DNA of 64,000 bases from Moorena sp. SS36440bin_2 (GTDB taxonomy: Bacteria > Cyanobacteriota > Cyanobacteriia > Cyanobacteriales > Coleofasciculaceae): assembly GCA_011524395.1 (NCBI GenBank), contig WTKN01000171.1, forward strand, positions 1-64,000. Reading direction: 5' to 3'. The position numbers were made by a program, and so were the translations under genes. Shown here in pieces: positions 13,436 through 61,873 of this stretch (the first letter of the stretch is position 1; each line of letters begins with the position of its first letter). The notes below the pieces were generated by a model that worked only from the letters and a program-made list of their open reading frames with translations, did not search any database and was not told the origin of the DNA.

Positions 13436-13458
13436 TGTCTTGATGCAGTCGCTCATGG
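13436..13458. repeat. Partial copy of the 50-bp 'cttgatgcag' palindromic repeat
   Basis: tgtcttgatgcagtcgctca matches the left arm of the repeat that interrupts the IS4-like transposase at 58997-59048. The right arm is missing here. Confidence 0.6.
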
Positions 13459-13571
13459 TTTGAATTTACCGTAAGACAGTTGAGCCTTAATCAATAAGTT
13501 TTACCCCTTTTCTCCATAGCCTAGCAACCATAAAGGCTCAACTGTCTAAGGTTTCGTCTCCGGGGGAAACC

Positions 13572-13635
13572 ACGGCAGTCGCTCATGGGGGGAACCCCCA
13601 AGACCGCGCTGCCTCCCCAAGACCGCGCTGCATCG
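13572..13635. repeat. Copy of the 50-bp palindromic repeat with duplicated right arm
   Basis: Reads gcagtcgctcatgggggg, then aacccccaagaccgcgctgc, followed by a second ccccaagaccgcgctgcatc segment. The ends can pair as a hairpin around the G-run/C-run centre. It belongs to the same family as 36436 and 58997. Confidence 0.65.
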
Positions 13636-13956
13636 CTCCTAAACTCCGAAACTTAGTCATAGCTTACGTTTGACTTCTGACGTAAGAACCTTTCTGACTT
13701 GCGCGTAGCGCTATATCTGTGGGATTGGCTGCTAAAATCAAGATTCTTTTCATCGCACTCTTTATGAAATTTATGAAGCGTACTTCATAAAGATACAATT
13801 GACAACTGTATGATTCGGGAAAATTTATACAAATTTGCCGTCAAAGATTACCAATCTGCAGTCGTGAACAGCATCTGTGTACTTCTGCATTGCTTCAGTG
13901 TAGACTAGGGCGCTGTTTATGGCGTTGCTTAATAATGGAATGATTTTAAGAGTGAG

Positions 13957-35735: not shown

Positions 35736-36158
35736 ATGAAAAATAAATTCAAGTACAATAAAAACATTGTCTAATTTTGTAAATACAACTTTAAATGGTG
35801 CCCCAAGTACCGCAGGCCAGTACTAGTAGAAGAGGTGGAAGTAAGACTAAAAGAACTCCTCTACCAAATAGCAAAGGAGATCCAAGTCGAAATTATCGAA
35901 TTAGAGGTAATGCCTGATCATGTTCATCTCCTCTGTGAATGCGATCCACAGTTTGGTATTCACAGAGTAGTAAAACGATTTAAAGGGGCGACCAGCAGGT
36001 ACCTTAGAGAGCAGTTTCCTCATCTGAAAAGCCGACTACCTACTTTGTGGACTAATTCCTACTTTCTCTCCACAGTTGGAGGTACTCCACTTGAGACGAT
36101 TAAACGGTATGTGCAAAATCAAAAAGAGGTAATGGGAATAAATTCCTGTTCGAGCTAA
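35736..36158 (+). pseudogene. tnpA: IS200/IS605-family TnpA (Y1 transposase), nonsense mutation at codon 13
   Basis: The frame from the ATG at 35736 reads MKNKFKYNKNIV, a TAA at 35772-35774, then FCKYNFKWCPKYRRPVLVEEVE in the same frame, the normal start of a Y1 transposase. The body contains the HUH motif MPDHVHLL and the catalytic-tyrosine helix TIKRYVQNQK. Only the single in-frame stop separates the N-terminal strand from the rest. Translation from a GTG or ATG further down (for example 35835) would give a truncated, probably inactive enzyme. Confidence 0.85.
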
Positions 36159-36338: not shown

Positions 36339-36435
36339 AGTTAGGGTAGATTAAACATTATGATTCCAGGCATTTTGGTGCTAAATCAATCTGAATTATC
36401 ACTCAAAATTGCATAGGTGCGCTTTCCGTGTCTTG

Positions 36436-36512
36436 ATGCAATAGCGAGTGGGGGAAACCCCCAAGACCGCGCTGCATCGCTAGGCGAATTAAATTCGCCA
36501 CGGGTCGCACCT
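36436..36512. repeat. Composite palindromic repeat: 50-bp element plus 26-bp element
   Basis: gtcttgatgcaatagcgagt through aagaccgcgctgcatcgct is a full copy of the 50-bp palindrome that interrupts the transposase at 58997. It is followed directly by the 26-bp sequence whose exact inverse is at 13145-13170. The internal hairpin is gggggaaaccccc. Confidence 0.7.
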
Positions 36513-57978: not shown

Positions 57979-58109
57979 ATCCGAAAGGGGTGCATCTGAT
58001 ACTTTTAACCCGGACAAACCATGACATCATAGACATTGCTGTCTATGGTGTCAGATACGCTGAGTACTACATCCCCAACATTGTTGAGGAAGGTGGTATC
58101 CCACATCGC

Positions 58110-58137
58110 CTTTCGGCAAAGCCGACGCTACGCGAAC
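58110..58137. repeat. 28-bp palindrome inserted near the 3' end of tnpB
   Basis: ctttcggcaaagccgacgct then acgcgaac. Its removal reconnects GIFL with RAMWDTTFL, matching GIFLRALGDTPWL of the sister TnpB at 54266. Same family as 34844, where the insertion kept the frame; here it introduces a stop (TTC GCG TAG). Confidence 0.7.
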
Positions 58138-58477
58138 AGGAATATCCCAACGGCTCCATTGAAATCTCGATGGATTTCATAATTACATTTTGGACATTTG
58201 AAATTCTTAGAACTACCAAGTTTTCTATGAATATGTCCACATTTTGTACAGGTTTTTGAAGTGTACTCTTCTGTCATTCTCACCAATCTGGAACCATACC
58301 GGTTACACAGATGTTCTAATATTTGCGAAAACTGATAAAATGCCCAGGTCATCATAGCCCTAGCCGTTTTACTCCTCAATTTACGCTTTTTCTTTACAAC
58401 CATCTGAGAAGTCTCAAATGTAGGCAAGATAATTACGTCATAGTTTTTGGCTAAATCTGGGGGGGCGACGAAATAAG

Positions 58478-59678
58478 TTAAAACGCAGACTCTATAAGCG
58501 ACCTAGCCCTTATACCTCGTTGATAATACTTTCGTTTATTAGGATTTAGTTTCATTAATTCGGTTGCTAATTCTAAACAAATATCCTTTAAAATTCCCCA
58601 ATTTTGGCCATATAAACCAATGTAAAAACTGCTATGTCTCCGCTCTATTCGACCAGATTCTTTGACACGACCAACATAGTTTTGTATTCCTTTACGTTTA
58701 ATTTTCCGACCCTGAAGTGTTGCGGAAGTGTAAGCTATCGCTATTAATAAAACTAGAGAAATAAACCGTTCACCATCAACTTTAGTCACCTCTAAATTAT
58801 AGCCACCTTTTTTAAAATCTCTAAACATTTCCTCTATATCAAATCTTTTTTTATAGGCGGAAATAGCTGAGTCGATTCTGTCGAAGTTTGTGAGTATAAA
58901 CCATCCTTCTTTGGGTGTTATTCCCTTGACTTTACGTTGCCACTTACAAGCAACATTAAAACTTGAAAATCCACGGGTTTTGGTAACTTTAACTCCTTGT
59001 CTTGATGCAGTCGCTCATGGGGGGAACCCCCGAGACCGCGCTGCATCGCTGGATAAATAAAGAAACTCCTGGTACTAAACCTAAGTCCTTAAGTTGAAGC
59101 CAATTATTTTTTTTATATTCAACAAATTCGTTCTTTTTTAAGCGTAAACAAAAAGACACGCCCAAATCCTGTAAGTACTTTCCTAATTTTACAGAACAAA
59201 ATTCTCTATCTCCCAACAGGCAGATTTTATAATTTTTAAAAATCGGTATAACCTTTGATAATATCCTTTGTTGTTCTGTTAAATTACTATTACCTAACTT
59301 TGGCAACAAAGTAAAATATATTGGAAACCCTCTTTTATCCCAAATTAGGCTAACCATGAATAAATTAATACGACTCCAACTTGTTCTGTCGATTGCTATA
59401 TAAATTAGTTCTTCCGAAGTAAAGTATGTTTGCAAAACTTCTTCAACTATTGGAAACCAAACTTTTTCAATGGTTAGATTTTGCAGCGATAAAAATCTTT
59501 GTATTCTTTTTCTTTTGCTTTCAAATTTAATAGGTAAAGGAAGAGCATTGGCTAATTTTTCCAAACTAACTTTTTTAATTGACTGTAAGAGATTGACGAA
59601 AATTTTTAAGAAAATATATTCGGCTAGAGTAAATTGACTTTTTAGGTGGTTTTGGTATAATGTGGGTAACATTGTCAA
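58478..59678 (-). pseudogene. IS4-family transposase split by a 52-bp palindromic repeat
   Basis: The N-terminal part (from 59678) contains the DDE acids in IAIDRTSWSRINLFMVSLIW and LLGDREFCSVKLGKYL. After LGLVPGVSLFIQ a 52-bp palindrome (58997-59048) shifts the frame to a stop. The true continuation is GVKVTKTRGFSSFNVACKWQ up to the IS4-type Y-R-E-K region YKKRFDIEEMFRDFKKGGYN and the C-terminus GIRARSLIESAF (58478). Removing exactly 52 bp restores a single frame of about 380 codons. The insertion therefore came after the IS4-like element landed. Confidence 0.92.
58997..59048. repeat. 52-bp palindromic repeat inserted in the IS4-like transposase
   Basis: ttgtcttgatgcagtcgctc through agaccgcgctgcatcg, with a central ggggggaaccccc hairpin and arms gatgcag/ctgcatc. 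Full copies or arms occur at 13436, 13572, 36436 and 42754. It is the clearest case here of a short repeat that has demonstrably moved, since the interrupted gene gives both junctions. Confidence 0.9.
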
Positions 59679-60571
59679 TAGGTAGGTTTTGTTGCAAATA
59701 GAACACCTACCTTTTTTTTACCATAAAATGGTACTACCTTTACATACCAAGCATTTCAGGCTGTTTCGTCGCCCCCCCAGGGCTAAATAGGAGGCAACTT
59801 GTTTATGGATTTCAGTTCTTAGATTTTTAATCTTAGTTCTGAGTCTTTCCATTGCCGCTTTTAGTCGATAACGTTTATGCTTGTTTTTGTGTCCCTTAGC
59901 CTGATCGTGATTACTTTTTATTTTGTCTAAATGATAGCAAAGTTTGGCTATCCTCTGAAAGTCATCAATTCCAAATTCAAGAAATTGATTTCCATCAAAT
60001 CCTGTCATGAATGTTCTGACGCCAGGGTCTAAAGCTACCACTTTTCTGGTAAGAGTAGGCTCTGTTGTAAATTCAACTGGAAAATGAGCGAACCATCTTC
60101 CTTTGTTGTAAGTCAGTTCCGTAGAACCGTCTGTCAATATACAGTGATTATTACCTTTAAACTTAGGCTTCGGTAAATGTTTAGTCGTGGAGACCATCCA
60201 TCTTCCCCCTTTGTAAGCTGTTGGATCAAACTGAATTGTTTGTTTTTGATCCCTTACACTACGGAACTTTGCTAACTTTAGACCAGCTTGTGGATTGGAC
60301 TTTCTTTTTTTACCAATACCTATGAACTTCGGTTGTTTAGCCGTTCCCTTCCAAGCTGTATAAGCTTCCATGGAAGCGTTATCTAGTATTTTAGAAACAT
60401 TTAGGCTTTTGCACCACTCAGGGATTAACCCAGATTGTTAAAACCCAAGTTCTAAAGCCATGTTTTCCTCCTTTCTTTCCTACCTTTGTATAACCCTGGT
60501 TCTTATTCAGTTGCTCGATTGATATGTTGTAAACTTTCCTGACAGCGGCGACCCACTTCTTCCATATTTTC

Positions 60572-61219
60572 TCAAGATCCTTGTTTGGATATACTCGGTA
60601 AGTCGTTGTCTTCAAGGATTTTGTTTTTATATTTCCTGAGTCCATACAATCGACAACTGAAGACATGGATGACCGCGAGTACATCTTCAACCATTTCTTG
60701 TTCTGGGCTGAGGTTCTTTTCGTCGAGAACCAGTATTGTGGTTTGGAATTTAGAACACAGCCATGAGATAAGATCGAACCCAAAGCGACAAAGCCTATCT
60801 TTGTGGGCAACGACAACATACTTGCAAGAACCGCCGATAACTCTGTCCAGTAAGGCTTGAAGACCTTTTCTTTTAAAGTTGAGTCCGCTCCCGATGTCTT
60901 TGATGATTTCTGCGTCTGGATAACGAGACTGGAGAAACTGTACTTGTTGTTCAAGATCGTTCTTTTGAGAGCGGCTTGAAACTCTGGCATACAAGATAGT
61001 AGATCGGTCTGTCCTAATTTTTTCTGATGGGATAGAGACAACTGAATTGAGGTCGTATCTTCTTTGTCCCCCAGGAGTTTTGATCCCTTGAATTTTACCT
61101 GACTCAAGCCATCGTTCAAGTGTTTTGGTACTAACCCCGAGCCTGTTGGAGGCGACTCGGGGAGGAACGTAATTGACTGATCCATCCATCTGAAGCTGTT
61201 TGATCTGTTTCTTGATCAC
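60572..61219 (-). CDS. tnpA: IS607-family serine recombinase (TnpA)
   Basis: A 215-residue transposase of the serine site-specific recombinase family. The N-terminal MerR-like HTH reads YVPPRVASNRLGVSTKTLER and ESGKIQGIKTPGGQRRYDL. The recombinase core has STILYARVSSRSQKNDLEQQ with the nucleophile Ser, DIGSGLNFKRKGLQALLDRV, and VAHKDRLCRFGFDLISWLC. The coding frame ends inside the start of tnpB (about 70 bp overlap), as usual for IS607. It looks intact and could act in trans on the other copy at 54.2-55.9 kb. Confidence 0.93.
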   Translation of the reverse strand: MIKKQIKQLQMDGSVNYVPPRVASNRLGVSTKTLERWLESGKIQGIKTPGGQRRYDLNSVVSIPSEKIRTDRSTILYARVSSRSQKNDLEQQVQFLQSRYPDAEIIKDIGSGLNFKRKGLQALLDRVIGGSCKYVVVAHKDRLCRFGFDLISWLCSKFQTTILVLDEKNLSPEQEMVEDVLAVIHVFSCRLYGLRKYKNKILEDNDLPSISKQGS

Positions 61220-61873
61220 TGTAGTCTAGGATGTCAGGAAATGTCAATTATGTCGGGGAAATTGTTTAACAGGAAGTACTCCTAAAAGCTGTTTGAGCTG
61301 GTGGGTGGAATGGGCATCAGGCGTGGAACGGGCATCTTGCCCGTTTCATTTCCGGCAGGAATGTCCCAACACTGGCTACCAATAAAATCAGGGTGAGCCG
61401 GTTCCTAACCTACCCTACGCCACATTTACTATAGCATTTCCAAATATATCATAAAAACTTATCACCAATCTAGTGACAAATCATGATCACATCTCTAATG
61501 GTTTGCTAATGCTAACGTTTGAGACTTTTATGATTTTAGCAACGGCGTTATTTAGTTAGCGATCGCATACAGCGCAGCAGAGCATATCACCAACTTTTAC
61601 AAACAACGATCAAAGGTTAATTTTACCTCTGCTATAGAAAGGCAAATTCCAAAATACAAATCACAGCAAGACCTTGGTGATTTAATTAAAATTTATCAAC
61701 AAATACTTGACAAATAGTATTGTTTATGAAAGCCTTGCCAAGGCTAGATTAGCGGTTTTTACCCTGACCATGAGCTGTTGCTGTAACCAACGGTGTATTA
61801 ATTATTTCCGACTAGTTATCCTACTGTAAACCTAGTATAAAATTGAATTTAGTCATCCCTGGATAAATTAATT
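61220..61873. other. Intergenic region with a repeat and a possible gene remnant
   Basis: About 650 bp. It contains the ggcatcttgcc-type repeat at 61308-61372. An open plus-strand frame at 61556-61717 without a start codon reads protein-like (HITNFYKQRSKVNFTSAIER, then QIPKYKSQQDLGDLIKIYQQ). This may be the decayed 3' end of a gene. No RNA gene seen. Confidence 0.45.
61308..61372. repeat. Copy of the ggcatcttgcc interspersed repeat
   Basis: gaatgggcatcaggcgtgga, then acgggcatcttgcccgttt, forms a hairpin-capable repeat related to 13957-14050. Confidence 0.65.

Follow-up and report, generated by a model that had tools for sequence, protein, structure and literature searches.

In what order did the mobile elements of a nested locus arrive, and how much of that order can be read from the locus itself? 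The question is raised by a 64,000-nucleotide stretch of DNA (the window) from a Moorena-group cyanobacterium whose genome is a 7.75-Mb draft in 441 contigs (G000). A first-pass annotation, made from the letters alone, had described an IS4-like element inside an IS607 tnpB, a 52-bp palindrome inside the IS4-like transposase and a further palindrome in the tnpB tail, and had proposed that one locus gives a relative chronology of mobile-element activity. We compared the locus with other copies of its components in the same genome and in three congeners, G001, G002 (Moorena bouillonii PNG) and G003. The nesting itself is supported, with IS607 in the chromosome, IS4 in IS607 and the 52-bp palindrome in IS4; the reading of the tnpB-tail palindrome as a further local event is not supported. 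An ordinary mobile-element nest, in which IS607 was followed by IS4 and then by a 52-bp non-autonomous miniature element, is overall the best explanation and one in which we have good confidence. The nest is soundly observed yet ordinary, recording transposon activity of a routine sort. Of more use are the clean filled and empty sites obtained for the 52-bp hairpin, with exact ends, a target motif and no duplication.

Components of the nest

The features of the locus are collected in Table 1. A search of Rfam gave no matches across 53.5–62.5 kb of the window.

Table 1 Features of the nested locus, in window coordinates
Feature	Positions	Strand	Evidence
IS607-family element (tnpA, tnpB, presumed RNA-bearing right end)	57996..61280	-	Empty sites in congeners
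24-bp small dispersed repeat TTCGCGTAGCGTCGGCTTTGCCGA, probably SDR5-type	58113..58136	-	Inserted CCTG^AAGG; alignment of IS607 copies
tnpB C-terminal part (TNB domain, RuvC-III)	58128..58448	-	Pfam Cas12f1-like_TNB; alignment
Left copy of 8-bp target duplication GGCTAAAT	58449..58456	.	
IS4-family insertion sequence, 1,324 bp including the 52-bp insert	58457..59780	-	17-bp exact inverted ends, family match
IS4-family transposase gene, split by the 52-bp unit	58478..59678	-	NCBIfam NF033591 on both pieces
52-bp REP-like mobile palindrome TGTCTTGATGCAG...CTGCATCGC	58998..59049	+	Exact insertion relative to palindrome-free copies
Right copy of 8-bp target duplication GGCTAAAT	59781..59788	.	
tnpB N-terminal part, frameshifted	59789..60580	-	NCBIfam guided_TnpB; alignment
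tnpA, IS607-type serine recombinase, 215 aa, open	60572..61219	-	NCBIfam NF033518, Pfam Resolvase

The ends of the outermost element are fixed to within 2 bp, with an AG core dinucleotide at both junctions, and four further elements, namely C349, C342 and a pair from congeners, have the same ends. G002 and G003 contain the exact orthologous empty site, where window position 57,997 joins 61,279 directly with a 2-bp overlap, so that the element made no target duplication beyond the 2-bp core. The insertion point lies between a glutamate-dehydrogenase-like gene and an EF-hand-like gene. Because both congeners have the empty site, IS607 would have reached the locus after the split from G002 and G003, or was lost from both.

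The element combines an IS607-type serine-recombinase TnpA (NCBIfam NF033518 transpos_IS607, E = 4.8e-59; Pfam Resolvase, E = 4.2e-16) with TnpB. The NCBIfam guided_TnpB model matches both tnpB pieces (E = 1.6e-16 on the downstream piece of the N-terminal part), and Pfam Cas12f1-like_TNB matches the C-terminal part with E = 1.2e-21. With tnpA matching the IS607 transposase and the pieces on either side of IS4 matching TnpB, the placement of the IS4-like element in an IS607 tnpB is confirmed. The start of tnpB overlaps the end of tnpA and is given here approximately. A lesion absent from the first-pass annotation is an additional base near 60,444–60,446, relative to C349, C342 and the G002 copy G002_654, which shifts the tnpB frame. 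The element thus resembles other TnpB-bearing IS607-family elements in its serine recombinase, its overlapping tnpB and a duplication of at most the 2-bp core; it differs in that the shared AG stands beside a GAG-type left flank and that tnpB is broken in three ways. Another IS607 copy, at 54.3–55.9 kb of the window, had been put forward for alignment. It turned out to be a distant relative with a single short 79% match and hence a poor comparator; we rejected it as too diverged and took C349, C342 and the G001 and G002 copies instead.

The IS4-family element agrees with its initial description, having exact 17-bp inverted ends (CTGGGGGGGCGACGAAA) and an 8-bp duplication, GGCTAAAT. Its transposase is of the IS4 DDE type, with NF033591 matching the N-terminal piece at E = 5e-45 (above the cut-off) and the C-terminal piece at E = 3.5e-19. 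The transposase match, the terminal inverted repeats and the target duplication are all as in IS4-family insertion sequences. In contrast, the transposase is interrupted, and the window copy has an 8-bp duplication where the four congeneric copies with readable duplications have 9 bp each. Transposition may have produced exactly 8 bp here, or a base may have been lost from an original 9 bp.

The 52-bp unit lies in the IS4 transposase at CTCCT^TGGATAA and causes a frameshift near residue 210. We aligned the element with six complete, palindrome-free congeneric copies, four from G002 and two from G001. Relative to these, the interruption is an insertion of exactly 52 bp, and the reported splitting of the transposase by the palindrome is borne out. 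When the flanks of the unit are joined, the frame is open over 395 codons from stop to stop, which makes the unit the sole frame-breaking lesion in this gene. An intact congeneric transposase (L078) has 382 aa.

A family of 52-bp hairpins with a target motif

The 52-bp palindrome is one of many. A strict asymmetric pattern of the unit gave 51 matches in the window's own genome (28 forward and 23 reverse), against none for the reversed-pattern control; a looser pattern gave 89, a figure that includes each fully symmetric copy once per strand. The hairpin is better than all of 200 shuffled sequences, and together with the count of strict matches this shows that the palindrome is not a product of chance. 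The single strand of the unit folds with its TGTCTT end unpaired (z -4 to -5). Among 388 genomes of the class, three others have a few strict copies, and the three congeners, which lie outside that draw, have many.

IS4 copies yielded pairs of filled and empty alleles with a difference of exactly 52 bp in the window, in G003 (C129) and at 2.666 Mb of G002, where the empty relative, 99% identical, is in G001. Further pairs lie outside IS4, in G001 (C8) and in a comparison of the C100 region with G001.

Target preference was analyzed at 56 distinct sites. Upstream of the unit, C occupies position -3 in 37 of the 56 and position -2 in 39, and T or C occupies position -1 in 46; downstream, T is at +1 in 55 of 56. 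Binomial P values range from 6e-7 to 5e-29. The target deduced from these sites is CC(T/C)^T, the unit inserting 3' of CC(T/C) and 5' of T. The +1 T belongs to the target and not to the unit, because empty sites show it. Apart from a T that fits on either side, the sites require no duplication, and some units start with CGTC and lack a T at that place. The tag at the end of the unit reads TGTCTT at 41 of the 56 sites and CGTCTT at three. By these features the unit behaves as a REP-like non-autonomous miniature mobile element with exact insertion.

Order of the insertions

How far position in the nest reflects order of arrival depends on the histories of the two palindromes. The one in the tnpB tail, described at first as a 28-bp palindrome and a further local hit, is in an alignment of six IS607 copies a 24-bp insertion, TTCGCGTAGCGTCGGCTTTGCCGA, and four other IS607 copies share it: C342 in the same genome, G002_654, G001_C4a and G001_C4b have it at the identical nucleotide. 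It is thus common to five copies, the window's included, in three species, for which reason it most likely belonged to this IS607 lineage before the landing here and came with the element. The alternative, that the repeat entered each copy independently at a preferred site and struck late at this locus, is unlikely, although repeated hits are possible since its flanks are non-random: those read fit (C/T)G^A(A/T) or CG^A(A/T), and one is an exact HIP1 site (GCG^ATCGC), in agreement with the preference of SDR5, which the relevant part of PMC4390886 describes as inserting between the third and fourth bases of HIP1. The repeat is also absent from C349 (L136, own genome), as from three more distant IS607 copies, and in a tree of element bodies the window copy is sister to the rest of the ingroup, with C349 falling inside that group at weak support. 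Against independent entry, five of the six ingroup copies in which the region is preserved have the repeat at one nucleotide and in one orientation, and the motif is degenerate. C349 itself is probably recombinant or gene-converted at its right end with a break near the repeat, since it shares 99% identity with the window copy over its last 107 bp but ~78% over its body. Early presence of the 24-bp repeat in the IS607 lineage is therefore the reading we retain.

The 52-bp hairpin calls for the same comparison, for the IS4 element could have carried it already on its way into tnpB, with an intact transposase from elsewhere acting in trans. The draft genome contains no near-identical sibling of the window's IS4 lineage, so whether the hairpin preceded or followed this transposition is not directly readable. 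Some IS4 copies elsewhere carry several units (L295), indicating that unit-bearing copies can persist, and a truncated fragment at ~866.7 kb of G002 (L143) carries the unit directly against the IS4 position that it occupies in the window. On its other flank, however, that fragment has non-IS sequence, with a 100-N scaffold gap ~54 bp further on, and its IS part resembles the C275/G002_43 lineage rather than the window's; given that the unit is site-selective, the fragment looks like an independent hit or a recombinant. A palindrome at the same transposase position in other copies had been named beforehand as the sign of earlier entry. The window's own genome and the six complete copies from congeners showed none, and 80 transposase relatives drawn from GTDB genomes are all uninterrupted at residue 210; nor does the draft assembly of the window's genome hold an intact IS4 copy that could help in trans. 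We regard entry before transposition as improbable, slightly more so than independent entry of the 24-bp repeat. With the six complete copies and all 80 relatives uninterrupted and the frame otherwise open, the hairpin is best seen as a late event, and the order of IS4 landing followed by the hairpin is very likely, though unproven from one locus. The same G002 fragment, having IS sequence on one side only of the unit, would also suit spread by recombination or gene conversion between repeats with no insertion at all. Such spread is very improbable, as filled and empty alleles at independent sites differ by exactly 52 bp with both flanks unchanged, and the clear target motif likewise speaks against it.

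The nest would then have formed in three steps. An IS607-family element, most likely with the 24-bp SDR5-type repeat already in its tnpB tail, entered an intergenic site that is empty in two congeners. An IS4-family element transposed into tnpB, as the duplicated 8 bp attest. Finally, a copy of the 52-bp hairpin entered a CCT^T target in the IS4 transposase and shifted its frame; the insertion is evident from the alignment, and its timing after the landing of IS4 is the presumed part. The locus teaches that the place of a repeat in a nest needs checking against other copies, because one of the two palindromes here probably came in with its host element.

The 24-bp repeat, of which the window's own genome contains 16 exact copies, supplies a TAG stop; this lies past the DFNGA RuvC-III motif and shortens TnpB by ~37 residues. 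With one flank exactly at the HIP1 position and the other flanks read degenerate, it is probably SDR5-type. In G002_654 (L140), tnpB is otherwise open and yet ends at the stop from the repeat, which in this copy is also found within the region presumed to form the guide RNA; a TnpB shortened at its C terminus seems to be tolerated there.

Recurrent insertion into IS4 copies

Across the IS4 family we counted 15 unit insertions at 9 residues, the doubtful G002 fragment being one of the 15. One of these, residue 116, has a unit in Moorena bouillonii, Calothrix elsteri (L313) and Mastigocoleus (L314), where the IS copies have diverged among the three hosts and their 52-bp units read the same. Coincident sites are expected from the motif alone, because the hit strand has ~16 CC(T/C)T motifs per element; a special homing process was considered for the repeated hits and rejected, 15 insertions falling on nine or fewer sites with P ~0.36.

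Insertion next to a motif, with no duplication, of a hairpin with one unpaired tag is what is expected of REPs moved by Y1 enzymes (IS200/IS605, RAYT enzymes). The insertion pattern of the 52-bp unit resembles such mobilisation by analogy, and the unit would be comparable to REPs for which an HUH/Y1-type enzyme acts on single-stranded DNA; this enzymatic step is inferred. No mobilising enzyme was found for it at the Y1 loci of the four genomes: a unit or half-unit lies within ~1.5 kb of 3 of the 55 loci, and none of the 55 is flanked on both sides. As three neighbours are about what unit density predicts on a rough estimate, we rejected a RAYT/Y1 partner at these loci, and the arrangement typical of RAYT-mobilised REPs, a Y1 gene flanked by repeat copies, is absent from them.

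A fuller reading can be advanced tentatively, at less than even confidence. The hairpin may be an actively moving, site-selective REP type of cyanobacteria (CC(T/C)^T, no duplication) with a TGTC or CGTC tag, its transposase not encoded adjacent to it, that repeatedly disables IS transposases at the same motif in diverged copies across genera.

One slightly diverged unit, at window positions 36,429–36,480, lies ~300 bp downstream of a Y1 transposase gene (35,775–36,122), and it is the sole such case among the 14 Y1 matches of the window's own genome.

Relation to known repeats

Like the SDRs of cyanobacteria (Elhai et al. 2008, Genome Res 18:1484), which we compared through the descriptions in citing papers, the repeats at this locus are very short, high-copy and precisely inserted, and one 24-bp copy lies exactly at the HIP1 position where SDR5 is so described to insert. 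On the same descriptions, the 52-bp unit is unlike SDRs in being longer, in forming a full hairpin and in having CC(T/C)^T instead of HIP1 as its target.

A closer likeness is to the CGTC-tagged REP superfamily, as presented in the sections of PMC3733652 drawn on here. Both have a hairpin, an unpaired 5' TGTC or CGTC tag and a short unpaired tail, and those sections report no dedicated transposase for CGTC REPs, as is the case for the 52-bp unit. The unpaired tag at one end of the hairpin is present in our unit. The other features given there, stems of 8–9 bp, loops of 4–5 bases and CCA-like tails, are not: the unit has a longer, interrupted stem made up of a 7-bp outer stem and an interrupted inner one, as well as a GC tail and a distinct sequence. 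For cyanobacteria, the same sections name GTAG-type REPs only. REPs and REPINs with RAYT genes (PMC3116915) are likewise non-autonomous palindromic mobile repeats; unlike the 52-bp unit, which flanks none of the 55 Y1_Tnp loci on both sides, they have GTAG tags and flank RAYT genes. The 52-bp family is likely a new addition to the REP/SDR kind, and its insertion data are unusually clean.

The cited part of PMC3733652 does not settle if CGTC-type REPs are still mobile or what moves them. The filled and empty pairs, above all tandem copies in Moorena bouillonii, make both questions testable. At 4.38 Mb of G002, two IS4 pieces in tandem, 739 and 791 bp long, show five mismatches and otherwise differ by the 52-bp unit. 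These ~99% identical pieces (L082; 4,381,000–4,386,000) are a candidate for a very recent insertion or a precise loss of the unit. Elsewhere in the window, positions 13,436–13,636 hold a composite of half-units of the 52-bp palindrome family around other repeat sequence.
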